Below are positions 23,489 to 35,847 of a stretch of DNA of 35,847 nt, in pieces. Source of the stretch: Actinomycetota bacterium (GTDB taxonomy: Bacteria > Actinomycetota > AC-67); NCBI GenBank assembly GCA_020201525.1, contig JAIVGO010000100.1:1-35847 (forward strand), written 5' to 3'. The translations under genes were made by a program, and so were the position numbers. Positions within the stretch are counted from its first letter, which is position 1; each line of letters begins with the position of its first letter. The notes below the pieces were generated by a model that searched no databases, was not told the origin of the DNA, and was given only the letters and a program-made list of their open reading frames with translations.

Positions 23489-24808
23489 TCAGCCCTTTCG
23501 AGACCACCGCAGCGCATCGCCAACGTGACCCACAGGCACGACTCGGACCCCATCAGCGGCGGGCACGGGGCTCGGCGCGAACACCGTCGCCACACCGCTC
23601 GCGGCCGCCGCTGCCAGGCGTTGCGGCATGCCGTGGACCGGCCGGACCGCCCCGGTCAGGCTGAGCTCCCCCACGAAGGCCGAGGACTCGGGTGGCGGCC
23701 GTTGGGTGGACGATGAGGCCAGCGCGGCCGCGATCGCGAGGTCGGCGCCCGGATCCTCGAGTCGGACTCCGCCCGCCGTGGCCCCGAACAGCTCGGCGCG
23801 CCCGATGGCCACACCGCCGGCCCGTTCCAGCACGGCCGCGATCAACGAGAACCGCCTGACGTCGAGCCCGGTGGCCTGGCGCCGCGCGGGGCCGTCGGTC
23901 TTGACGGCCAGGGCCTGGACCTCGAGCGCGTAGGCGCGCCTCCCGGCGAGTGGCAGAGCCGTTGCCGCGCCGGGCACGGCGCCGGCGGGTGACCCCAGCC
24001 CTGGCGGCCCGACCTCCGCGAGGCCGTCCGGAGCCATCTCGAACCACGCAACCTCGCCCTCCGCTCCGAACCGGTTCTTGCCGCCCGCGAGCCGCCGCAG
24101 CCCGGAGTGGGGGTCGCCCTCGAACGAGAGGACGGTGTCGACGGCGTGCTCCAGGGTGCGCGGGCCCGCGACGTCGCCGTCCTTCGTGACGTGGCCGGTG
24201 AGCAGAACGGCGATGCCCTCCGATTTCGCCATGCCCACCAGGGCGTCGGCGCAGGCGCGGACCTGCCCGGGCCCGCCGGCAGCACTCGGCGAATCCGCGT
24301 CGCGGAGGGTCTGGATCGAATCCACGGCCAGGAGGAACGGGCGTCGAGCCCGCGCCGACTCGATCACGTCGCCCAGGTCGCGGCCGGGAACGAAGGCGAT
24401 CTCGGCGCCGTCGATGCCGAGGCGCTTCGCCCGCCCCGCCACCTGGGCCCGGGACTCCTCGCCCGACGCGAGCAGGCAGGCGTGCCCGGCAACCGACAAG
24501 CGCGCGACCACGTGGAGGAGGAGCGTCGACTTGCCGATGCCGGGCTCGCCGGCAAGCAGCGTCACGGACCCGGGCACGATGCCGCCCCCGAGCACGCGAT
24601 CCACACCGGCGCTCCCCGTGGACACGCGGTCCTCGACGCCACCCTCGGTCTCGAGGGTGGCGACCGCGGCCAGGGCCCGGCCGAGGCCGGCCGGATGCGA
24701 GCGCTCGCCGATGGATCCCCACGCGCCGCACGAGGCGCAGCGGCCGACCCACTGGGAGGCCGGCTGGCCGCACTCCGAGCACGCGAGGAGCTGCTTGATC
24801 CTGCCCAC
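23489..24808 (-). CDS. radA: DNA repair protein RadA (Sms)
   Basis: RadA is a RecA-like ATPase that drives branch migration in recombinational repair. The 439-residue protein begins with a C4 zinc finger (Cys10, Cys13, Cys24, Cys27: LACSECG...GRCASCG). Walker A is GEPGIGKS at residues 87-94. LLAVDSIQTL is Walker B. The RadA-specific motif GGKNRFG follows, and the C-terminal Lon-like domain includes FVGELSLTGAVRPVHGMP. GTG 24808 gives the expected N-terminus just before the zinc finger. The gene is divergent from the secreted-protein gene at 24937 and lies 115 bases upstream of carD on the same strand. Confidence 0.97.
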   Translation of the reverse strand: MGRIKQLLACSECGQPASQWVGRCASCGAWGSIGERSHPAGLGRALAAVATLETEGGVEDRVSTGSAGVDRVLGGGIVPGSVTLLAGEPGIGKSTLLLHVVARLSVAGHACLLASGEESRAQVAGRAKRLGIDGAEIAFVPGRDLGDVIESARARRPFLLAVDSIQTLRDADSPSAAGGPGQVRACADALVGMAKSEGIAVLLTGHVTKDGDVAGPRTLEHAVDTVLSFEGDPHSGLRRLAGGKNRFGAEGEVAWFEMAPDGLAEVGPPGLGSPAGAVPGAATALPLAGRRAYALEVQALAVKTDGPARRQATGLDVRRFSLIAAVLERAGGVAIGRAELFGATAGGVRLEDPGADLAIAAALASSSTQRPPPESSAFVGELSLTGAVRPVHGMPQRLAAAAASGVATVFAPSPVPAADGVRVVPVGHVGDALRWSRKG

Positions 24809-24936
24809 GAGCCGACCCTAGCGAGGGGGTGTGACACGGAATCGGGCCCCCTCATTTGTGCACCCGACCAAAGGGGACGACTCGCCCGGCCCCGAATGGC
24901 TTCGACCTGAGGACCTCGACCACGACAGGAGGACCC

Positions 24937-26355
24937 ATGCGCCCGCGCCGACTGCCGCTCGCCCTCGTATCCGGGCTGCTCGTCGCGTCCCTTCTCCCGG
25001 CGCAGGCCGGCGCGGCCGACCGCAGCTACAGCCGCGCCTATCTCATGGCCGACGAGGGCAACGAGTACTACTGGAGCGTCGATCCCGACGACCCCGAGCT
25101 CAGCGTGGGCACCATCTCCGTGCAGTGCGGGGGGACGGTGTGGGGCACACCCGACGCGAAGCCGTGTCTGCACGGAACCGATATCAACAACAAGCAGAAC
25201 ATCTTCGCGCTGTTCTTCCTGCCTGCCACGCTGTTCGACGCACCCACCGCGTGGACCTCGGCCGAGCCGATCCGCTTCCACCTTGCCCTGCATGTCACCT
25301 CCCCGCTCCCCTACACCGTGCACTTCGGCCTGCAGGAAGGGGTGGCGCAGCTCGAATCCGACCCGGCCACGGAGACCGCGCCCGACGTGTGGGAGGGGAC
25401 CCTCGCAAAACCGGGGAAGATCGACGGGAGCGCCTTCGTGATGCCCTACGTGCGGATCAGGACGCTTTCGCCGGTCGTGGCGATCGACATGAAGACGGCG
25501 GGCCGGACGTGGTTCGATCTGCCGCACGCCGTACCCGGGCACTCCGTCCCCGAGCTCCTTGCGCGCAGCACGTACCGCCCCGAAGCCCAGAGCTTCTCGA
25601 CACCGCAGCGCTCGTTCACATTCAACGACAGCCAGTGGAAGGTGGAGACCTTCACCGGCGACCTCACCGTTGCCCGATCGTTCGACATCTCCCTGGACCG
25701 GGACGCCGAGTTCCTCTACGCCTGGGCCGAGGACTACGAGTCCCCGCTCGTGTACGACCTGGCGAAGGGCCGGTCTCCGGAGTCGCGGAAGGCCACCGAG
25801 GGGCTCACCCTCGAGCTGACACAGAACGGTGAACGGCTCGACCGGACCACGGGGAGTCCCGGAAAGGGCTCCACGACCTCATCCGCGCCCGACGTGCCCG
25901 CCGGTGCGGCGCAGCTCACCGTGACCCCGGTGGGCACCCAGGCCAGCTCCGCGTACAAGGCCTACGTGCTCGAGGTGTTCGGTCCCAGGACCCTCGCGAG
26001 CTTCCGCGAGACGTTCACCGCCGACACGATGCGCGCGGTCACGATCGCCACCTGTCCGGCCGGCACCGAGCCCGTGCCCGTGACCGAGGAGGTGACGACG
26101 TTCTCCGTCGATCTCGACTGGGACACGGTCGCGCCGGGGCTCCCGAAGTGGACCCTGCGCTACGGCCTGCCCGGCGTGGGTGACTTCCCCTGCGGCGAGT
26201 TCGGAACCGGTGACCGCATGCGCTTCACCTACCCCACCGACCAGGTCTGGTGGATGGGGGCCACGACGTCCCAGGACTCCATGACGGTGTCCCACTTCGA
26301 CACCGTCTTCGAGCTGAAGGTCCGCTACGCCTACACGCCCCTCCCCACAGCGTAA
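24937..26355 (+). CDS. Secreted protein of unknown function (472 residues)
   Basis: I do not recognise this family. A clear signal peptide is present: RPRR, then a hydrophobic stretch LPLALVSGLLVASLLPA and an AQAGAAD cleavage region near residue 27. The mature part is rich in beta-forming and acidic residues and has few cysteines: CGGTVW and PCLHGT early, CPAGTE and PCGEFG late, which could form two disulfides. Two similar stretches of about 200 residues may be separate beta domains, the second starting near TLASFRETFTADTM. ATG 24937 has AGGAGG six bases upstream. The next gene starts 11 bases after the stop, so they are very likely one operon with the two other exported proteins that follow. 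No membrane anchor or sorting signal is seen at the C-terminus. Confidence 0.85.
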   Translation: MRPRRLPLALVSGLLVASLLPAQAGAADRSYSRAYLMADEGNEYYWSVDPDDPELSVGTISVQCGGTVWGTPDAKPCLHGTDINNKQNIFALFFLPATLFDAPTAWTSAEPIRFHLALHVTSPLPYTVHFGLQEGVAQLESDPATETAPDVWEGTLAKPGKIDGSAFVMPYVRIRTLSPVVAIDMKTAGRTWFDLPHAVPGHSVPELLARSTYRPEAQSFSTPQRSFTFNDSQWKVETFTGDLTVARSFDISLDRDAEFLYAWAEDYESPLVYDLAKGRSPESRKATEGLTLELTQNGERLDRTTGSPGKGSTTSSAPDVPAGAAQLTVTPVGTQASSAYKAYVLEVFGPRTLASFRETFTADTMRAVTIATCPAGTEPVPVTEEVTTFSVDLDWDTVAPGLPKWTLRYGLPGVGDFPCGEFGTGDRMRFTYPTDQVWWMGATTSQDSMTVSHFDTVFELKVRYAYTPLPTA

Positions 26356-26366
26356 GGAGCCCTGCC

Positions 26367-27872
26367 ATGCGACGACTGCTGACCGCACTCACCCTCGCCA
26401 TCTCGCTGATCCCGGCCGTCGGCGTCCGAGCGACGCCGGTGATGGAGACGGGCGCCTCGGTGACGGCAGCCGGCCCTGCCGTGATCCGCGACCATCAGGC
26501 AGGCATGCACACGCTCAAGGCCGTCGGCCAGCAGCAGCAGGACACCGCCATCGAGCCGTCCGTCGCCGTGAACCCCGGGGATCCGCTGAACGCCGTGATC
26601 GGCTACCAGGCGGGCCGGGTGGACGGCGGGTGCGCGCAGACCCTCGGCTACGGCGTGACCTTCGACGGCGGCGAGACGTGGTCGTGGGGCCCGTTGCCGA
26701 AGCTCACGACGGCCAACGGCGGGACGTATCCGCTCGCGTCCGACCCGGTGATCGCCTTCGGGCCGAACAACACCGTGTACTACAGCGAGCTCTTGTGCAG
26801 CCCGTCGGATCTCGCCACGAGCGTCTCGCACGACGGCGGCAAGACGTGGAGCGATCCCATCGTCATCCCTTCCGCGCAGACGTTCGCGAGCGACGACAAG
26901 AACTGGATCGTCGTGGACAACGGCACCGGCATCGGCCACCACCCGGGACGCATCTACCTCGGGTGGGACGACGTGGAGCCGGTCGTCGCGCTGTACTCCG
27001 ACGACGAGGCGAAGACCTGGAACGGCCCGTACGTGATCTACCCCTACCAGGGAATCGGCACCCTCACCATGGTGATGCCGAACGGCGATCTCTCCGTGGT
27101 CCTCAACACCGGCACCTACGTCAACCATCTGCCGTCGGACCAGGAACCGGAGACCGACTTCGTGGGGGCCGAGATGATCGTGGCCACGGCGAAGGGCGCA
27201 GGCGCGGTTCCCACCGGTGGCCCGCTCGTGTTCACCGTGCCGCTCGCCGCGGGATCCGACCGGAGCACCGACGTCCCGTTGCAGCGAGCGGGCGAAGGCC
27301 TGCCGTCGGCGGCCTTCGATCCACGCAACGCCAGGATCTACGTGGCGTGGCAGGACGGCCGGTTCCGGAGCGACGGCTCGAACGACATCGTCATCTCGTG
27401 GAGCGACACGACCGGCGTGACCTGGAACAACCCGGTGCGGGTGAACCCCGGGCCGACGGGTGATGGCGTCGAGCACTTCACCCCAGCCCTGGGCGTCGGG
27501 CCCGACGGCAGCGTGCGGATCTCCTATCGGGTGCAGGAGGAGGGCTCGGACTTCGTCGACACCGCGTACCAGCAGTCGACGGACGGTGGACAGACGTGGA
27601 CGGCGCCGCTGCTCGTCAACACCGGGTCGATCCCGGAGCTCCTGCCGACCGCGGTCCCGGTCCGGACGGACATCCATTTCGCGGCGTACTCGCGAAGCAG
27701 CGCCTTCCTCGGCGACTACAGCGAGGTGGCGCCCGCCGGATCCTGGACCTACATCGTGCGGTGCGAGGCCTACCGGATCTCGCCCAACGACCCCGTCGGG
27801 TTCCCGCCGAAGATCCACCACCAGCGGGCGTGGGTCGCCGTGGTCGACACCGACGGCGATGGGGTCCGCTGA
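26367..27872 (+). CDS. Secreted Asp-box (BNR) beta-propeller protein, sialidase-like
   Basis: The 501-residue protein has a signal peptide (RRLLTALTLAISLIPAVGV) with cleavage likely near residue 22. Five Asp-box motifs (S/T-x-D-x-G-x-T-W type) are visible: TFDGGETW (about 98-105), SHDGGKTW (154-161), YSDDEAKTW (about 210-218), WSDTTGVTW (about 345-353) and STDGGQTW (404-411). Asp boxes mark turns of sialidase-type propellers, but also occur in non-enzymatic binding propellers. I do not see the three-arginine sialidase site clearly, so enzymatic activity is open. ATG 26367 has AGGAG seven bases upstream. The C-terminus ends DTDGDGVR, a short calcium-loop-like acidic tail. Its TGA shares one base with the ATG of the next gene (TGATG). 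Confidence 0.85.
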   Translation: MRRLLTALTLAISLIPAVGVRATPVMETGASVTAAGPAVIRDHQAGMHTLKAVGQQQQDTAIEPSVAVNPGDPLNAVIGYQAGRVDGGCAQTLGYGVTFDGGETWSWGPLPKLTTANGGTYPLASDPVIAFGPNNTVYYSELLCSPSDLATSVSHDGGKTWSDPIVIPSAQTFASDDKNWIVVDNGTGIGHHPGRIYLGWDDVEPVVALYSDDEAKTWNGPYVIYPYQGIGTLTMVMPNGDLSVVLNTGTYVNHLPSDQEPETDFVGAEMIVATAKGAGAVPTGGPLVFTVPLAAGSDRSTDVPLQRAGEGLPSAAFDPRNARIYVAWQDGRFRSDGSNDIVISWSDTTGVTWNNPVRVNPGPTGDGVEHFTPALGVGPDGSVRISYRVQEEGSDFVDTAYQQSTDGGQTWTAPLLVNTGSIPELLPTAVPVRTDIHFAAYSRSSAFLGDYSEVAPAGSWTYIVRCEAYRISPNDPVGFPPKIHHQRAWVAVVDTDGDGVR

Positions 27873-28045
27873 TGCGCCCGCGCGTCGTCTCCTCGGTCAT
27901 CCGACCCTTGGTGATCGTGCTCGTCGGCTCCCTCGCTGCGGTCATGGCGCCGTCGCTCGCGACCGCGGCGGAGCGGGGGCGACCGGACGGCGCCGCCTTG
28001 CAGCGGCAACTCGCGGCTCGGGAGCGAGCCTGCGCCAGCTCTTGA
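27872..28045 (+). pseudogene. Signal-peptide fragment of the frameshifted FG-GAP protein
   Basis: ATG 27872 overlaps the previous stop (TGATG) and encodes a good signal peptide: RPRVVSSVIRP, hydrophobic LVIVLVGSLAAVMAP, then ATAAE as the cleavage region. The frame then runs AALQRQLAARERA and stops at TGA 28045 after only 57 residues. In the -1 frame the sequence continues smoothly from CTG 28030 (LRQLLKRLDPTDVRS) into the large exported-type protein below. The simplest reading is one missing base between about 28013 and 28030, in the genome or in the assembly. Whether the gene is truly broken cannot be decided here. Confidence 0.7.
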
Positions 28046-29988
28046 AGCGGCTCGATCCGACGGACGTCCGGAGCTATCCGGATGTGATCAGGGCCCTCAT
28101 CGAATCGCGAACCGGCACCAGGTTGCCGGACCTGCGGCCGCAGCATTCGCTGGCACCGACCCCACGTTCGCACCTGGCTCGCACCGGTGACACCGGTGAC
28201 ACGGGCGAGGGCGGCGAGGGCGCGCCCGCCCCTGAGCCCGTCGGGACCGTCTCGTACCCATCACCCGTGGGCGACCTCTCCGGCGACGGCCTCGACGACG
28301 TGCTCGTCTACGACATCCAGCTTCCCGCGGAGCGGCTCAGCCTTCGGGCGCTTCGCGGCACCGACGGACAGGAGCTGTGGCAGGCCTCCTTCGGCGCCGG
28401 CGTGGATGCGATCGCCGAGACGGTCGGAGACCTGACCGGCGACGGCAAGGAGGAGCTCCTGGTCGAGGAACTCGAGATCACGGACTCGGTCTTCGACAGC
28501 AACTGCGACGATTCGGGATGCACCTTCAACGACGACGAAACCTACGACTGGCACGTCTCGATGCGCTCGGGCGCGACCGGCAAGTCCCTGTGGAGCAAGC
28601 GCTACGACGGCTCGTACACGGACCGATTCGGCGTGAGCGGCGAGAGCCCCACCCCCGTCTCCGTCGTCTCGACCGCCACCGAGGACTTCCAATCCTCGAA
28701 CGTCGTCGTGCTGCCGGAGGTCGCCGGCGACCACGACGGTGACGGCCACCCCGACGTGCTCGTGGACGAGCTCGATGTCGGCTGGCACGCCGCGGACCGG
28801 TACGAGGAAACGGCCATCGTCACCTCGAAGGACAACGGCGAGGAGTCCCTCAGGACCGCCACGCGCTCCACCCTCCTCGACGGGTCCCGCGGACAGATCA
28901 TCGTCGGACGCTCCTTCGATACGGCGCCGAGGATCGGCCTCGCGTGGCCGGTGAGCGACCTGGCCGGCACCACCACTCCCGACGTGCTCTGGGACGGGAT
29001 CAACGTCCCCGATACGAGCTACTCGTGCACGACCATCGCCGTGAAGGAGGACTGCACGAGCACCGGCGCGGGGCCAACCCTCGACGCCGAGGCCCTCGAC
29101 GGCGCGACCCTCGCGACCACCTGGCACGTCGGGGGAGCCGTGAGCGATGCCTACACCGTTCCTGTCGAAGCCGATCTCTCCGGGGACGGCGTTGAGGACT
29201 TCCTCGTGGAACTCGCGCAAGACGGGCAGACGTACGGACTGCGACTGCTTTCGGGAGTCGACGGCACCGAGCTGTGGAACCGGAGCACGGCCACCGCGGA
29301 GTACCTCGTCCTCGTCGACGACATCGGAGGGTCGCCCGGCGCCGACCTCGCGGTGGTGAGCCTGGCAGACGCGCCGGGAGCCTACGCCATCAGGTTCACG
29401 CGACTCGACGGCCGCACGGGCCAGCCATTCCTCGACACCGTGCGCGAGTTTCCGATACTCGACGGATCTCACGACGACGAGTTCGTCTTCCTCTACGCCG
29501 GTGGGATGGACGACGTCGACGGTGACAGGATCGGTGACCTCTTCTCGGGAGCTGTCAACGCCGCGTACGACTACAACGAGGAGACGGGCGAGGCAACCCT
29601 CGCCGACGTCAGCTCGGCCAGCGTCGTCGAGTCCTCGGCAACGGGGACAACGGTGCGCGAGAGTCGCACGAAGGACACCCGCCTGCTGTGGCCCTCCGTG
29701 GATCTGAGCGACGACGGGAACGCCGAGATGTTCGAGACTCGCTGCCCGGGCCTCGAGAGCGGACCGTGCGACATCTCGACGCTGAGCCTCACCCCCCAGA
29801 AGACGCTCTGGACCCGGACCTTCGCTCCGGACGAGGGCTTCAGCATCGATGCAGCGGGCGATGAGGACGGCAAGCCGGGCAACGAGGCGCTCTTCGGCCG
29901 GATCACGACCACCGGGAACCACGTTGTCTCATCGGTGGCGAGCCTGACGGGAGCAACCGGAGCCGTTCGCTGGCAACGTCAGCGCTGA
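28030..29988 (+). CDS. FG-GAP/VCBS-like repeat protein, main body (separated from its signal peptide by a frameshift)
   Basis: About 650 residues carry repeated calcium-loop blade motifs of the integrin-like propeller type: GDLSGDGLDDVLVYD, GDLTGDGKEELLVEE, GDHDGDGHPDVLVDE, ADLSGDGVEDFLVEL, DDVDGDRIGDLFSGA and GDEDGKPGNEALFG. These occur in extracellular proteins, but this frame has no signal peptide; the matching one is in the 27872 frame, one base out of register. Coordinates start where the two frames can be joined. If it is translated separately, TTG 28042 (overlapping the upstream stop as TTGA) or GTG 28084 could start it, giving a cytosolic product that makes little sense for this fold. 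A short Asp/Gly/Glu-rich stretch (GDTGDTGEGGEG) separates the N-terminal helix region from the propeller. Confidence 0.75.
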   Translation: MRQLLKRLDPTDVRSYPDVIRALIESRTGTRLPDLRPQHSLAPTPRSHLARTGDTGDTGEGGEGAPAPEPVGTVSYPSPVGDLSGDGLDDVLVYDIQLPAERLSLRALRGTDGQELWQASFGAGVDAIAETVGDLTGDGKEELLVEELEITDSVFDSNCDDSGCTFNDDETYDWHVSMRSGATGKSLWSKRYDGSYTDRFGVSGESPTPVSVVSTATEDFQSSNVVVLPEVAGDHDGDGHPDVLVDELDVGWHAADRYEETAIVTSKDNGEESLRTATRSTLLDGSRGQIIVGRSFDTAPRIGLAWPVSDLAGTTTPDVLWDGINVPDTSYSCTTIAVKEDCTSTGAGPTLDAEALDGATLATTWHVGGAVSDAYTVPVEADLSGDGVEDFLVELAQDGQTYGLRLLSGVDGTELWNRSTATAEYLVLVDDIGGSPGADLAVVSLADAPGAYAIRFTRLDGRTGQPFLDTVREFPILDGSHDDEFVFLYAGGMDDVDGDRIGDLFSGAVNAAYDYNEETGEATLADVSSASVVESSATGTTVRESRTKDTRLLWPSVDLSDDGNAEMFETRCPGLESGPCDISTLSLTPQKTLWTRTFAPDEGFSIDAAGDEDGKPGNEALFGRITTTGNHVVSSVASLTGATGAVRWQRQR

Positions 29989-30052
29989 CCGGCAGCTGAA
30001 GCGGCGAAAGGAAGGGGTTCGCGGCCCGAATCGCGAATACCAAGGCATGCAG

Positions 30053-31438
30053 ATGCGCGTAGCTGAAGCCCTGCCGGTCCCCCGGGCACGGATGGCTGCG
30101 GGAAGCCGGCTCGCGCGCTCGGAGATCGTGCTCGCGATCTTCGCCCTGGCCATCGCCTACGGGGTCTTCGCCCAGGGCGCCTTCTACTGGGCCCAGGCCA
30201 CCTTCGTGGCAGGCGCGTTCCTCGTGCTCCTCGTCCTGACGGGAGCCGGAGCCTTCCGAGGCTCGGCTCCTCTGCTGGCCGGTTTCGGGCTACTCGCGGT
30301 CGGGCTCCTCGTGAGCACGGTCGCCAACGGCACCTGGTCCATCCCGGCCAGGCTCCCGCTCGTCAGCCTGATCCTCGCGTGCTGCGTGCTCCTCGTGGTC
30401 CGGACCCTGGTCACGTGGGGGCTGCGGTCCGATCTGCTGGAGCTGGCGTCGTGGTTCGGGGCCGCGGTCGCAGCGATGGGGATCGTCGGCGTCGCCTGGC
30501 ACGCGGCGGCGTTCGCGCAGGAGGCGCCACCGATGTGGCGATTGGCCGGAACGTTCACCTACGTCAACGCGGCCGCCTCGTTCCTCGTGCTCACCCTCCC
30601 GGCCACGCTCCTTCGATGTGCGAGGCGCCCCGGCGCGACCTCGAGGTTCCTCCTGTACCTGACGTTTGCCGGCCTGCTGGCAACGGTCTCCCGGGGCGGC
30701 GTGGTGGCCGGGGCTGTCATGGCCGCGGTCCTGTTGGCCACGGGGCAACGCGGACTGCTCCGACATGGCGTGCGAGCGCTGGCCGGCGCCGTCGTCGCGT
30801 TCGCCGGCCTCGTGCCATCCATCGCCGACGCCCAACCTCATCCGCTCCCGGCGCTGCTGGGATTCGCCGCGGGCGCCGGCCTCGCGGTGGCCTCGGTGCG
30901 CGTGAAGCTGCCCGCCCGCGCCAGACGCGCCCTCCAGGGAGGAGGCGTCGTGGTGGTCATCGCACTCGCCGCCGTCCCGTTGCTGACCCACCGCGACTCG
31001 ATCCTCGCCTCCCGCATCAACTTCCGCTCCGAGGCAAGGCTGACCAACTGGTCCGAGACCATTCATCACATCGCCGGTGACCCCATCCTGGGATCCGGGC
31101 CTGGCACGCTGGAGCTCTACTTCCCAGCCGGCGCCGCGACGATCCGCACCCCGTTCGCCCACAACGAGTACCTCCAGACGCTGGCGGAGACCGGCGTGGT
31201 CGGGTTGGTATCGGTCCTCGCTGCGATCGCGCTGTTCGCCACGACAGCGATCCGCCGCCGGCCGAGAGACGACAGGCCGCATGAGCGCATGGTGTGGGCC
31301 GCAGCCACCGCGTGCTGCGCCGGATTCCTGGCGCAGAGCGGCGTGGACTTCACGTGGCGATTCCCGATCCTGATCGTGCTGGCCTTCTCATGGCTCGCGA
31401 TCGCAACGACGAGAGGTGCCGAGGAGGAAACGAGATGA
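30053..31438 (+). CDS. O-antigen ligase/polymerase-like membrane protein (Wzy_C family)
   Basis: The roughly 460-residue protein is mostly hydrophobic, with about eleven or twelve predicted membrane segments. The key family signature is late in the protein: DPILGSGPGTLELYFP, then AHNEYLQTLAETGVVGLVSV, the histidine-containing extracytoplasmic loop of O-antigen ligases and Wzy-type polymerases. Such proteins join or polymerise lipid-linked sugar chains at the outer face of the membrane. In an actinobacterium the product would be an exopolysaccharide or cell-wall glycan rather than LPS. ATG 30053 has AAGG seven bases upstream; ATG 30047 is two codons earlier. A small hairpin (30018-30037) precedes it. 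The stop overlaps the next gene as ATGA. Confidence 0.85.
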   Translation: MRVAEALPVPRARMAAGSRLARSEIVLAIFALAIAYGVFAQGAFYWAQATFVAGAFLVLLVLTGAGAFRGSAPLLAGFGLLAVGLLVSTVANGTWSIPARLPLVSLILACCVLLVVRTLVTWGLRSDLLELASWFGAAVAAMGIVGVAWHAAAFAQEAPPMWRLAGTFTYVNAAASFLVLTLPATLLRCARRPGATSRFLLYLTFAGLLATVSRGGVVAGAVMAAVLLATGQRGLLRHGVRALAGAVVAFAGLVPSIADAQPHPLPALLGFAAGAGLAVASVRVKLPARARRALQGGGVVVVIALAAVPLLTHRDSILASRINFRSEARLTNWSETIHHIAGDPILGSGPGTLELYFPAGAATIRTPFAHNEYLQTLAETGVVGLVSVLAAIALFATTAIRRRPRDDRPHERMVWAAATACCAGFLAQSGVDFTWRFPILIVLAFSWLAIATTRGAEEETR

Positions 31439-32115
31439 GGAACAGGATCGCAGCGCTCTTCCGTCGCATGGGAGGCCGGAACCGAAAGATCATGCTGATC
31501 GGTGCCGGGCTCGGCGTCGTGGTCGCGGTGGCGGGGCCGGCCGGCATCGGCATCGGCTCCTATTACTCGGTCGGCTATTACTACTCCTACTACCAGCCTT
31601 ACTGCACGACAGCTCATGGGCCCGGATCATCGGTGCCGCGGTGTCCCACGCCGACGCCGAAGCCGACACCGACGCATCATGTGGACGACGATCGCACACC
31701 GCCCCCGACGGAGAGTCCGAGCCCCACTCCCACGGAGAGCCCCACACCCACTCCAACCGCGAGCGACGAACCATCTCCTGCCCCGAGCCTCGAGGCCGCG
31801 AGCCCCACGCCGGTCCCCTCGCCCCCGCCCGGTGCGAGCGGCCGTGTCACGTCCACGGTTCGGCCCCACACCGGCCCGCCGGGCGCCCACGTCCGGCTCA
31901 TCGGGCACGGATGGAAGCCGGACTCCACGGTGCGCATCAGCTTCGCCGGGCATCGACTGGGCCGGGCGCACACCGGACCGAACGGCGGTTTCAACGTCTC
32001 GCGTCGCATCCCGGCGGGGGTGAAGCCGGGGAGTCACGCGTTCCTGATCCGCGGGTCCGGCCCGACGGGAGACCGCGTGCTTCGGAAGGCCTGGTTCGGC
32101 GTCCTGAGACTGTAG
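31435..32115 (+). CDS. Membrane-anchored protein with Tyr-rich and Pro/Thr-rich stalk and C-terminal beta domain
   Basis: The 226-residue protein starts with a basic segment (RNRIAALFRRMGGRNRK), a membrane segment at about 22-43 and then a tyrosine cluster (YYSVGYYYSYYQPY). A Pro/Thr/Ser stalk follows with PTPKPTPT and SPTPTESPTPTPT. The last 90 residues form a compact Gly-rich beta domain (GPPGAHVRLIGHGWKPDSTV, then HTGPNGGFNVSRRIPAGVKPG). It resembles the IPT/Ig-like domains found at the end of many actinobacterial surface proteins. It is probably held on the outer face of the membrane. ATG 31435 overlaps the ligase stop (ATGA) and has GAGGAGG seven bases upstream. No catalytic motif is seen; a structural or glycan-associated role is only inference. 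Confidence 0.75.
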   Translation: MRNRIAALFRRMGGRNRKIMLIGAGLGVVVAVAGPAGIGIGSYYSVGYYYSYYQPYCTTAHGPGSSVPRCPTPTPKPTPTHHVDDDRTPPPTESPSPTPTESPTPTPTASDEPSPAPSLEAASPTPVPSPPPGASGRVTSTVRPHTGPPGAHVRLIGHGWKPDSTVRISFAGHRLGRAHTGPNGGFNVSRRIPAGVKPGSHAFLIRGSGPTGDRVLRKAWFGVLRL

Positions 32116-32121
32116 CGCCGG

Positions 32122-32144
32122 GGGGCGGGGACGAGCCCCGCCCC
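32122..32144. terminator. GC-rich hairpin between convergent ends
   Basis: GGGGCGGGG (32122-32130) and CCCCGCCCC (32136-32144) pair perfectly around ACGAG, between the stop of the plus-strand gene (32115) and the minus-strand clpC tail stop (32157). No T-run follows, but the position fits a bidirectional terminator. It is absent beside the right-hand clpC tail. Confidence 0.6.
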
Positions 32145-32156
32145 AAGGATCGCTGA

Positions 32157-32297
32157 CTAGCTCTCCTGCTGGCCTGCGAGCTCCACGGGCGGAGCGTCGG
32201 GGGTCAGCGGGGCGGCCTCGAAGACGATCTCGCCGTCGTGCGCGTCGACGATGATCGTCTGCCCGGCCTTGAACTCCTTCCACAGCAGCTTCTCGGA
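32157..32297. repeat. Left direct repeat of the island (clpC 3' end)
   Basis: It aligns without gaps to 35707-35847, with 138 of 141 bases identical. The mismatches are at 32175/35725, 32190/35740 and 32199/35749. The true repeat probably extends beyond 32297, because the right copy is cut by the window edge. Confidence 0.95.
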
Positions 32298-32312
32298 CAG
32301 CGGATCCTCCAG
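32157..32312 (-). pseudogene. clpC: Detached 3' end of a clpC-type gene (left copy)
   Basis: The minus strand encodes LEDPLSEKLLWKEFKAGQT and continues to a GQQES-stop end, about 51 residues. This is the C-terminus of a ClpC-type AAA+ unfoldase (family pattern IEDPLSE.LL..E...G). The homology ends near 32312; beyond it lies an unrelated istA-like fragment, so the rest of clpC is missing here. The protein sequence equals the right-hand copy (35707-35847) wherever both are visible. Because the neighbouring GC-rich hairpin and the plus-strand gene look like ordinary chromosome, I infer that this is the original end of clpC, cut off by the insertion. Confidence 0.75.
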
Positions 32313-32418
32313 TCTCCCCGAGACATCTGTCCCCACCCGTTTGGCGATGGTCGCTTGATGCTCAGTCGTTCGGAGAAGTTCAGACGCCTGATCTCGGCCC
32401 ACTGATGTACGTTAATCA
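32313..32418 (-). pseudogene. IS21-type transposase (IstA) N-terminal fragment
   Basis: ATG 32418 follows GGGGAAGG closely and encodes MINVHQWAEIRRLNFSERLS, which closely resembles the start of IstA transposases of the IS21 family. After SIK the frame appears to shift: with one extra base the sequence would continue ATIAKRVGTDVS, in keeping with the helix-turn-helix that follows in IstA. It then runs straight into the clpC tail near 32312. Only about 35 residues remain, so it is non-functional. I did not find IS21 terminal repeats. Confidence 0.55.
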
Positions 32419-32424
32419 TTCCTT

Positions 32425-32497
32425 CCCCCTGACCGGCTTGGGCTGCCGGTCAGGCTCACCCTCCGGGCACCGGAGTCCCGGAAGGAAGCCCAGGGGG
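32425..32497. repeat. Nested inverted repeats at the left island border
   Basis: A perfect 10-bp palindrome arm pair, CCTGACCGGC (32428-32437) and GCCGGTCAGG (32445-32454), is followed by TCCGGG/CCCGGA (32462-32467 and 32477-32482). An outer pair, CCCCCTG (32425-32431) and CAGGGGG (32491-32497), competes with the first stem. It may be a terminator, a recombination-site structure or a leftover transposon end. The rest of the gap up to 32703 shows no gene and no clear promoter. Confidence 0.6.
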
Positions 32498-32703
32498 ATC
32501 AGAATTCAACCGACGCCGACACAAACGTTCACGGGACATTTCGCGCAAACACTGTGCATTGGCACAAAGGAATCAATACAGGCCCGACGAACCTCGTCTG
32601 GAGAGCCCGCGCTGCAAGAGAGGAGACGCCAGCAAGTTCGACGAGTTTTTCGCGCCGACATCCCAGCGGGCCCCTCTGAGACTCGCGCCCTGAAGGAGAT
32701 CTT

Positions 32704-34530
32704 GTGCTCAGTTTCTCTCTACGTTTGCGCACCCGTTGGATTCTGTCCGTCCTGCTCGCAGCCTCTTGTCTGTTCGCACTAGTTCCTCCATTCTCCTCGA
32801 AGGCTTCGGCGTCTCCACGCTCAGCCCCGCAAACAGGGTTCCTGGGCTCCGGCCGGAGGGCAGTGATCCGAGTCGACCAATCGCCCCGGAGCGGACCGTT
32901 GGATGCGCCATACATCACATGGATTGACCTAGACCCGAACCCCGGCCACGGACATCCTTACCCTCCGTACGCCGGAGACTGGCTAATGTTCACTGTTCAT
33001 TGGGGAACAAATCACCCTGCCTTTGTCAAAGCGCTTATCTGCCGAACTCCCGATGGCGTAGGCCCAGGCGGCGAATGCTCTGGTGGCGGCGGATGGGCTG
33101 ACGGAGCCTGGCCATACAACGATTCAGGCGTAGCGCACACAGGTTACGTCTACGGGAATAATGACGGCCAAGTCCACGCCTCGACGGCCTTGTACATGAC
33201 CCTTCCTCAGGACATAGGAACCCACGATTTCTGGGCATACGCTTGCGATATCACCGCAATATGCTCAGCCGCCTTCCATGGGACTTTCGAAGTCATCGGG
33301 CCCGAGGCCCCCTACCACAATGTGCTCGATCCTGTTTGCTCCTCGATCCGAAACATCAATCGAGATGACGGGGATTTCTGTAGTGGCGCGACGCTGGCAG
33401 CGCAAGGAGTAGCTACCGAAAGAACCTGCGGCCTCATTGGCGGCGGCTTGGGGGAAGGCTGTAAGTATTACGCTCGAGAGGCTGAGACCTCAGACCCCTG
33501 CTTGACTGTGCTCTGGGCGACAGGAAATCCCGGATGGATGGGAGGGTGCTATTACTGGACAGGGCAGATGGGTCCCATCGTCGGCGTGACATGCCAACAG
33601 GCCGCTGCGTTGGGCCACCTAGTGCCCGGCATGAGGATCATGGACGGAGGAGTAGGAGTAACTGTGCCCGACCCCGGCGACTACGCCTTCGCTTCACTTT
33701 ATGAAGTTAACGGTATCGAAGAAGTCGGAGTTACTCTCTTGTCGGACTTTACAGCCAGGATTTACGCCTGCGGTCCTGATTCCGGAAACGACGTATCAAG
33801 CCTCACGGCGGACGCCGGCGAAGTGCTCGATCTTGGCGATGGCCCAACCCCGACCGTTGACAGCATTATCGATGACTTGCTTTCAGATGACCCAGAGAAC
33901 CGCAAAAAGGGATCCCAAAAAACATGCGGCGACGGTAGATATAACCTCGAAGACTGGCACTGGACCCACTACTACGACTGGCACTTCAACGCTGGGTCAG
34001 CTCCTCCGAACGTCAATCAAGATAACGCCGAACTAGGTATTCTCTCCGGGGCGAGTAATGTAACGAACGCCTTCAATCCATGTGGTCTTGCCGACAACGT
34101 CGACGCAGGATGGAACTACCAAGGCAGAACCGACAGACCAGCGAATGCTACCGGCAACAATTGCGATATGCCCGACCAGTACAGCGTCGTGGATTTCGGG
34201 CCGCTGACCGGTTCATCCATCGGGCTAGCCTGCACATATGCACACTGGTATGACCTTGTGAATGGAGGCTTGGCGACGGATGAGTCGGATATTCGCCTCG
34301 ACTCTCGAAGCAAGTGGTTTATGGGCACAATTATTCCTGCAGATTGCCAGGACCGGTGGTCCATCGAAGGGGTCATGACCCACGAGTTTGGGCACGCATA
34401 TGGCTTGGCACATGTAGGTGAGGAACGACATGGGAATCTCACCATGAGTACAGACAACAATGGTACTTGCCAGACCTCGGAGGAAACACTGGGACTGGGA
34501 GATGTTCATGGCCTTGAAGCGCTGTATTAG
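32704..34530 (+). CDS. Secreted metzincin-like zinc metalloprotease
   Basis: The 608-residue protein has a signal peptide (RLRTRWILSVLLAASCLFALV, cleavage near ASAS). The zinc site THEFGHAYGLAHVGEE begins at His560, giving the HExxHxxGxxH motif of metzincins (His560, Glu561, His564, His570). LTMST soon after supplies a Met-turn methionine, and the end LGLGDVHGLEALY matches the close of matrixin-like (M10-type) catalytic domains. The roughly 500 residues in front are unfamiliar. They contain many Cys (CRTPDG, CDITAICSA, CSSIRN, CGLIGG) and probably form one or two disulfide-bonded beta domains, the first near YAGDWLMFTVHWGTN. GTG 32704 has GGAG five bases upstream. It is the largest cargo gene of the AT-richer island and its base composition differs clearly from its flanks. 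Substrate unknown. Confidence 0.85.
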   Translation: MLSFSLRLRTRWILSVLLAASCLFALVPPFSSKASASPRSAPQTGFLGSGRRAVIRVDQSPRSGPLDAPYITWIDLDPNPGHGHPYPPYAGDWLMFTVHWGTNHPAFVKALICRTPDGVGPGGECSGGGGWADGAWPYNDSGVAHTGYVYGNNDGQVHASTALYMTLPQDIGTHDFWAYACDITAICSAAFHGTFEVIGPEAPYHNVLDPVCSSIRNINRDDGDFCSGATLAAQGVATERTCGLIGGGLGEGCKYYAREAETSDPCLTVLWATGNPGWMGGCYYWTGQMGPIVGVTCQQAAALGHLVPGMRIMDGGVGVTVPDPGDYAFASLYEVNGIEEVGVTLLSDFTARIYACGPDSGNDVSSLTADAGEVLDLGDGPTPTVDSIIDDLLSDDPENRKKGSQKTCGDGRYNLEDWHWTHYYDWHFNAGSAPPNVNQDNAELGILSGASNVTNAFNPCGLADNVDAGWNYQGRTDRPANATGNNCDMPDQYSVVDFGPLTGSSIGLACTYAHWYDLVNGGLATDESDIRLDSRSKWFMGTIIPADCQDRWSIEGVMTHEFGHAYGLAHVGEERHGNLTMSTDNNGTCQTSEETLGLGDVHGLEALY

Positions 34531-35101
34531 ATCTAAATCGCGCCCCGGGTCAGTCGGCAGTGGGCGGGCCCTCCTTCCAACGGGTGTCTTAGCCTTGTTT
34601 CTCGTTCTCGTAGCTGGGCCTGTGGCTAGCGCTGACGACTCCGCACCGCCACAGCTAACCATGCTAGTGGGGTCCGCACATCAGAATGGGACAATGTTGA
34701 GCTATTGCTGGTCTCACGGAGGCCTATTGGAGTTCACGAGGACATGCGTTGACGGTTCGCTCGCCTTCCCTCGGGCAATCCGCACCTCATCGCCTGAGGC
34801 GCGCATATTCGTCCCTCGCGTCGATCTACCGAAGGAGTTTACGATTACTTTGTGGGCCCGTACCTCGGACCGATGGCGAGTCCGGGGATCAATGAAACCC
34901 AGCTGGACTCCGGGCCTATATCATGGGATCGTTGGGTGGTTCGCTGAGTTCTCTATCGAGAGTAACCCAACTCAGATTTACCTCGAATGCTTCGGAATCT
35001 GGAGGGACGATGGCCTGACACCTACTGATGAAGACGCGTCTTGGTCGTTTCACATCCAGAGGCGACAACCACATGCAGCTAACGCAGTCCCTCGGTCGTA
35101 G
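34508..35101 (+). CDS. Small secreted protein of unknown function in the clpC island
   Basis: The 197-residue protein starts at ATG 34508, inside the end of the protease gene, with GGGAG six bases upstream; ATG 34502 is two codons earlier. After a basic N-terminus (KRCIRSKSRPG) comes a signal-peptide core TGVLALFLVLVAGPVASA with cleavage likely before DDS. The mature part has three Cys (SYCWSHGG, TRTCVDGS, YLECFGIW) and several Trp, and ends in a hydrophilic tail. I recognise no family. The overlap with the protease gene suggests co-expression; an inhibitor, chaperone or partner of the protease is possible but is pure inference. Confidence 0.65.
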   Translation: MALKRCIRSKSRPGSVGSGRALLPTGVLALFLVLVAGPVASADDSAPPQLTMLVGSAHQNGTMLSYCWSHGGLLEFTRTCVDGSLAFPRAIRTSSPEARIFVPRVDLPKEFTITLWARTSDRWRVRGSMKPSWTPGLYHGIVGWFAEFSIESNPTQIYLECFGIWRDDGLTPTDEDASWSFHIQRRQPHAANAVPRS

Positions 35102-35104
35102 ACC

Positions 35105-35488
35105 GTGCCCAAATCTCATCGCGTAATATATCTGGCGGCGCTGATACTTCTCATCCCTGGGACCCTCATTGGAGCGTCCATCATTGGGAGCAACACCCCC
35201 CGGCCGACCCCTCAACCAGCGTTTCAAGCAGTTCTCCGTGAAGCGAAGTGCGTCGTTCCAGACAACAAGGTGTGCCTTCGAGGGAGAATACGGAACGTCG
35301 GCGACGCTGCAGGCAGCGGTGCTTGCCAAGTTATCGGAACAACGACCGACCATCGGATTGTGTTTGGTCCACAAATCACGATTCCCAGACTGCTTCCCGG
35401 CCACAGCGTGGAGTGGCGACCGGTCTGGAGCCTACGGCGTGCATCGCTGGGCTACCGCGCAGCTTGCGAGCCCGGCGCGAAGATGTAG
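35105..35488 (+). CDS. Small membrane-anchored or exported protein of unknown function
   Basis: The 127-residue protein starts at GTG 35105, three bases after the previous stop, with no good Shine-Dalgarno. One membrane segment (VIYLAALILLIPGTLIGASII) is followed by a Pro/Thr spacer (NTPRPTPQP). A small domain then has two Cys near its start (AKCVVPDNKVC), GRIRNVGDAAGSGAC and a PGHSVEWRPVW end. This looks like the small extracytoplasmic beta domains that describe themselves by a V-x-G-x-V/I-x-N-x-G core (FxLYD-like), but I cannot assign it. It closes the three-gene plus-strand cargo of the island. The next 218 bases hold only a doubtful 56-codon frame. Confidence 0.55.
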   Translation: MPKSHRVIYLAALILLIPGTLIGASIIGSNTPRPTPQPAFQAVLREAKCVVPDNKVCLRGRIRNVGDAAGSGACQVIGTTTDHRIVFGPQITIPRLLPGHSVEWRPVWSLRRASLGYRAACEPGAKM

Positions 35489-35520
35489 CTTATCCTCGAT
35501 CGTACCGTCCCCCAGAGTTT

Positions 35521-35691
35521 TCAGACCCCCGAAAAGAAAGAGTCGCCTGCATCCAGGGTGGCAGCAGCCCCCCGCGGCAGCCTTGTTCGATTAATCAGGT
35601 CGCGCACGCTGCTAGCCGGTTTCGGGCCGATGACGCCATTCAACTGGGCGAAGGAATTGCCGATGTTGTCAGGATGGACCCGACCCGTCAT
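35521..35691 (-). CDS. Doubtful 56-residue ORF downstream of clpC
   Basis: ATG 35691 has TAGGAG two bases upstream, which is too close to be a good site. It encodes a 56-residue frame (MTGRVHPDNIGNSFAQLNG...) ending at TGA 35521. It begins 16 bases after the clpC stop, on the same strand. I recognise no family, and it may be a remnant of something displaced by the insertion or simply chance. Confidence 0.2.
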   Translation of the reverse strand: MTGRVHPDNIGNSFAQLNGVIGPKPASSVRDLINRTRLPRGAAATLDAGDSFFSGV

Positions 35692-35706
35692 AGCTCCTAG
35701 GATTCG

Positions 35707-35847
35707 CTAGCTCTCCTGCTGGCCGGCGAGCTCCACGGGGGGAGCGTCCGGGGTCAGCGGGGCGGCCTCGAAGACGATCTCGCCGTCGTGCGCGTCGACG
35801 ATGATCGTCTGCCCGGCCTTGAACTCCTTCCACAGCAGCTTCTCGGA
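35707..35847 (-). CDS. clpC: ClpC-type ATP-dependent Clp protease ATP-binding subunit, C-terminal end (5' part outside window)
   Basis: The last 46 codons are visible: SEKLLWKEFKAGQTIIVD, then GEIVFEAAPLTPDAPPVELA and the end GQQES-stop. The pattern DPLSE/SEKLL...G..I.VD..DGEIVF is that of the C-terminal D2 small domain of ClpC, a hexameric AAA+ unfoldase that feeds substrates to ClpP. The gene runs off the right edge on the minus strand, so I assume, but cannot see, that it is complete. The tail here appears to be supplied by the inserted element, because the copy at 32157 lies in the more chromosome-like context. It differs from that copy at three bases only, none changing the protein. Confidence 0.75.
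   Translation of the reverse strand, partial: SEKLLWKEFKAGQTIIVDAHDGEIVFEAAPLTPDAPPVELAGQQES
35707..35847. repeat. Right direct repeat of the island (clpC 3' end)
   Basis: Partner of 32157-32297 at a constant offset of 3550 bases, cut by the window edge. Just past the stop codon the two copies share only a scrap (TAG, then a CGA-ATCC-like string) before diverging. Confidence 0.95.

Follow-up and report, generated by a model that had tools for sequence, protein, structure and literature searches.

Displaced gene ends beside newly acquired DNA are known from several bacterial systems. In homology-facilitated illegitimate recombination and single-crossover integration, described in Acinetobacter, Pseudomonas stutzeri, Streptococcus, and E. 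coli, one junction is homologous and the other lies in unrelated sequence, and homology-facilitated illegitimate recombination is rare where it has been measured. Single-homology integrations in E. coli often partially duplicate the anchoring locus, over 109-950 bp (PMC3240628). Events of this type have been proposed as the source of the displaced gene ends in T6SS effector/immunity arrays and Rhs loci, where a conserved upstream part anchors new downstream DNA and the old ends remain as strings of displaced 3' ends (PMC5361080). The same geometry can also arise through an integrase, as in the e14 prophage, which like phage 21 targets the 3' end of the icd gene of E. coli; e14 brings a new gene end, and the displaced one, of 163 bp, remains (PMC6379469). 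The locus analysed here lies at the right-hand end of a window of 35,847 nt (1-35847), which is an entire contig (G000:C13), and carries the 3' end of a clpC-type gene on both sides of DNA of foreign composition. Its features are as follows.

32118-32148, no strand assigned: strong G+C-rich hairpin separating the left clpC tail from the convergent gene upstream, from folding
32157-32309, minus strand: left copy, a displaced 153-nt clpC 3' end including the stop codon, from the repeat and from homology in relatives
32310-32521, minus strand: truncated 5' end of an IS21-family element, from an istA N-terminus match and a terminal repeat
32490-32521, minus strand: putative terminal inverted repeat of the IS21 remnant, from its likeness to a Rhodococcus antarcticus IS21 repeat
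32704-34530, plus strand: secreted matrixin-like metalloprotease of 608 aa (Pfam PF00413, 26.6 bits against a cut-off of 24)
34460-35101, plus strand: ORF for an exported protein of no known family, with a signal-like N-terminus read from the sequence
35105-35488, plus strand: ORF for a small exported protein of no known family, with a hydrophobic N-terminus read from the sequence
35707-35847, minus strand: right copy, the 3' end of a clpC-type gene that runs off the contig end, from the repeat and the contig limit

A preliminary description of this DNA had claimed that the end of a clpC-type gene occurs twice in direct orientation, and this is borne out: the segments at 32157-32297 and 35707-35847 are 98% identical over 141 nt, lie 3550 nt apart, and form a real repeat for which chance is excluded. 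Both come from a minus-strand clpC-type gene, each starting at its stop codon, and identity sets in precisely there (CTA at 32157 and at 35707), being lost with the very next base beyond the stop. The three mismatches, at 32175, 32190, and 32199, are confined to the distal 51 nt of the repeat, leaving the proximal 90 nt identical, and all are synonymous, so that the two copies share the translation SEKLLWKEFKAGQTIIVDAHDGEIVFEAAPLTPDAPPVELAGQQES. Had one copy drifted freely, an all-synonymous pattern would be expected in about 1% of cases; both tails were thus probably coding when they diverged and come from two working clpC genes, although an argument from three differences is thin. The right copy comprises the terminal 141 nt of the contig, where it is cut off, whereas the left copy can be followed by homology to other clpC genes as far as about nt 153-155, that is, to 32309. 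The possibility that the two tails belong to two complete clpC genes, which the preliminary description had named, if seen in relatives, as fatal to its reading, is ruled out, because the left copy stops at nt 153.

The DNA between the tails (32310-35706, about 3.4 kb) has a GC content of 57.7%, compared to 69-72% in the rest of the contig, and its tetranucleotide usage is also unlike that of the remainder. The difference in composition reported earlier is therefore real, as is the cargo of a secreted metalloprotease and two small exported proteins: all three ORFs are present, and the Matrixin domain of the first scores above the cut-off, with the motif HEFGHAYGLAH matching HExxHxxGxxH at about 34381-34413. 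Other actinobacteria, among them families of the class most like the contig, have relatives of the catalytic domain at 31-58%, and the matches on plasmids, in Streptomyces and one Miltoncostaea, are to the catalytic domain only. Searches of GTDB 220 contigs, IMG/VR, and phages recovered no relatives of the metalloprotease. Its N-terminal domain (residues ~79-199, at ~32960-33300) recurs at 40-45% identity, in repeated form, in large proteins encoded on contigs C85, C150, and C109 of the same bin. Neither exported ORF has a match in Pfam or NCBIfam, and the first of them probably begins at an ATG near 34505. Consistent with the preliminary description, searches of the insert by ORFs, Pfam, and NCBIfam revealed no recombinase or integrase, only the protease, the two exported ORFs, and a fragment of istA; nor does the insert contain an excisionase or att arms, or an int gene adjoining the clpC stop codon.

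The istA fragment defines the left edge of the insert. A minus-strand ATG at 32419 opens the peptide MINVHQWAEIRRLNFSERLSIK, with a frameshift near codon 22 followed by ATIAKRVG, and the resulting 37-aa peptide aligns with the N-termini of istA proteins, beginning at the start codon, at 63% across 30 aa. Because the E value is only ~0.02, the assignment to IS21 comes from agreement among the matches and not from any single score: among the matches listed, those that are annotated are IS21 istA transposases. The fragment itself falls below detection by Pfam and NCBIfam. About 100 nt upstream of the istA ATG, the stretch at 32490-32521 resembles a sequence of Rhodococcus antarcticus, with an alignment no stronger than the best of 200 shuffles; the Rhodococcus sequence, however, is a genuine terminal repeat of an IS21 element, with an inverted counterpart at the opposite end of that element. 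Thus, the segment at 32310-32521 shares an istA start and a terminal inverted repeat with IS21-family elements, but differs from them in being a frameshifted fragment of ~212 nt; istB and a target duplication are absent from the insert, the window holds no second IS21 end, and no other copy of the fragment was found in the bin. The similarity to istA is lost by ~32330, leaving about 20 nt unassigned before clpC begins, and at 32309/32310 the interior of clpC is joined to the truncated, frameshifted istA with no word shared between clpC and IS21 at the join. On its sequence, the left edge is the broken 5' end of an IS21 element and not a clean att boundary. The IS fragment ends inside istA where the clpC scrap starts, making this a deletion or an illegitimate junction and not an attachment site.

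The left copy sits in what is supported as its native flank. Directly to its left, the segment 32112-32162 folds with -31.6 kcal/mol (z = -3.6), and the hairpin within it is probably the native bidirectional terminator common to the clpC tail and to the convergent gene ending at 32115; no comparable hairpin was found beside the right copy (fold z = -0.14). Furthermore, the same contig encodes radA (23492-24817), a carD-like gene, a PIN/TRAM-like gene, ispD, ispF, and rlmB, the usual neighbours downstream of clpC. Together, the terminator and the radA-carD-ispD-ispF-rlmB set support a native location for the left copy. Relatives (the nearest 65% identical in RadA) have a single clpC tail at 0.1-3.7 kb from radA with various genes between. 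The interval itself is variable, holding unrelated genes in different lineages, and in the window the region between radA and the clpC end (24856-32115) contains five plus-strand genes that encode secreted proteins, proteins with FG-GAP repeats, a Wzy_C-type membrane protein, and a proline-rich protein. No remnant clpC tail that would mark earlier insertions was found on the radA side of the genes at 24.9-32.1 kb.

The origin of the contig bears on how the two junctions are read. The bin to which it was assigned is of metagenome type, with 209 contigs, and the GC content of the window contig (68.4%, against a bin range of ~59-68%) is the highest among the 62 bin contigs compared. The clpC locus proper to the bin lies on contigs C86 and C26, which have 62-63% GC and are syntenic with the family of the bin. 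The right end of C86 (L082 8214-8285) overlaps the left end of C26 (L041 1-72) by exactly 72 nt, and the joined contigs give the bin's own locus carD-disA-mutY-clpC-lysS. The window contig has its own carD, the second in the bin, and a comparison covering carD, radA, ispD, ispF, rlmB, and the PIN/TRAM gene showed 57-73% amino-acid identity to another actinobacterial family versus 39-57% to that of the bin. The nearest named RadA relatives, at 65% identity, are metagenome-assembled Actinobacteria. The window contig is very probably a misbinned contaminant from another uncultured actinobacterium of soil type. The remainder of the right-copy clpC is absent from the contigs of the bin; the intact clpC on C26 was considered as the partner of the right copy and ruled out, as it has 77% DNA identity and lies in the bin-family locus C86-C26.

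We tentatively favour an explanation, held at somewhat less than an even chance, in which recombination anchored in clpC brought in the low-GC DNA next to that gene, with the other end joined illegitimately and the old tail left in place. The donor would have carried the segment of IS21 remnant, protease, and two ORFs directly downstream of a closely related clpC, and this segment would have entered the genome together with the end of the donor clpC. Homologous recombination within clpC would then have fixed the right junction, the resident gene gaining a donor tail with three synonymous changes, while the left junction would have formed illegitimately, inside the decayed IS21 copy on one side and 153 nt into the resident clpC on the other. 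The old tail and its terminator would stay behind as non-functional scrap. At the right junction, clpC does show donor-like synonymous differences, over 141 nt only, and an intact gene beyond them is presumed; at the left junction two unrelated sequences do meet, the interior of clpC and the truncated istA. A junction that is internal to both genes, in an insert with no recombinase, favours an illegitimate join, because site-specific integration alone would not make it. In having one homologous and one unrelated junction, the locus resembles the homology-facilitated events outlined above, and the duplicated piece falls within the 109-950 bp range of the E. coli integrations; those are selected laboratory events, in contrast to the single contig without a donor seen here. 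The likeness to Rhs/T6SS effector loci extends to the conserved upstream part that would anchor new DNA and the old end that remains, with the difference that clpC is a housekeeping gene whose new end is synonymous, so the protein is unchanged.

A somewhat unlikely alternative is that the arrangement is present in no cell, the assembler having merged into one contig the sequences of two strains that differ in the DNA following clpC. Such a chimera would be in keeping with the misfit between the contig and its bin, in GC content and in the second carD and clpC found on bin-family contigs, and with an insertion sequence, a sequence class that causes misjoins, at one edge. Furthermore, the contig stops exactly 141 nt from the stop codon, as it would at a graph branch located at the stop, and 141 is a common final k. 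The exact overlaps between contig ends in the bin, one of them the 72-nt overlap noted above, range from 25 to 123 nt, and a final k of 141 is neither proved nor excluded by them. If the last word size of the assembler was 141, then some other sequence in the sample would share this tail but differ in the DNA downstream of it, a possible sign of strain variation here. However, the join at 32309/32310 offers no clpC-IS21 word that an assembler could have used, and the IS fragment is decayed and single in the bin, not an active multicopy element.

The reading first proposed for this locus, the integration of an element that replaces the tail of clpC, stands only in its geometry of old tail, foreign DNA, and new synonymous tail. 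Cast in the form of e14 in icd, it would have an integrase recombine the chromosomal clpC tail with one carried by the element, which would supply the new 3' end, and would require later loss of the integrase by an IS21-associated deletion ending in the old tail. As with e14, a protein-coding gene is targeted at its 3' end, which is repeated directly on both sides of the insert; the displaced end is of similar length (~160 bp for e14 and phage 21, with 163 bp for e14 being close to the 153 nt here), and the replacement end is slightly different. The restriction of differences to the distal 51 nt, with an identical proximal 90 nt, is what would be expected of a crossover inside the tail, and the truncated IS21 is independent evidence of a deletion at the left end. 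In contrast, e14 has an integrase, phage genes, and known empty sites, none of which were found here, and one edge of the present insert is a broken IS21; such elements often keep int beside the gene they target, a position that is vacant at the clpC stop codon. Relatives of the insert were lacking in viral, phage, and GTDB 220 collections. No second clpC tail beside clpC emerged from the search of other actinobacteria suggested in the preliminary description, whether among the matches listed for 397 genomes across the phylum or in 15 named relatives, and a class-level search of 27 genomes also gave none. In the open literature searched, clpC was not found as an attachment site, and the one prophage paper recovered has clpC only as a phage gene. 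Site-specific integration is a rather unlikely reading, and the claim of a mobile element is the part of the original reading that lacks support.

Quite doubtful is a two-step history in which a tandem duplication or plasmid integration gave a longer second piece of clpC, most of which was then deleted by a nearby IS21 copy to leave 153 nt. Deletions adjacent to insertion sequences are common, and such a history accounts for an istA cut in its interior and for a clpC scrap that ends at no recognisable site, but it adds a step and supposes an intermediate that has not been seen, and side-by-side clpC genes were found neither in the 15 named relatives nor among the matches listed from the 397 genomes. 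It is very improbable that small tail-replacing elements moving in trans truly use the clpC 3' end as their site, with the contig end marking further tail copies with other cargo in the population.

The locus looks like an unusual but explicable scar of a single recombination event, or a join made in assembly, and there is only partial support for reading it as a site-specific mobile element. Confidence is lowered by the reliance on a single contig, which moreover ends at the very feature described. If the junctions are real, clpC-anchored capture would be a natural record of the conserved end of a housekeeping gene anchoring the acquisition of unrelated downstream genes, achieved without a dedicated integrase and with the protein unchanged. 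Duplication of a gene tail beside foreign DNA is, by itself, not proof of site-specific integration.

Contigs that end inside clpC are not confined to this assembly: those of three other metagenome genomes (G078, G065, and G063) also terminate within the last 106-146 nt of the gene.
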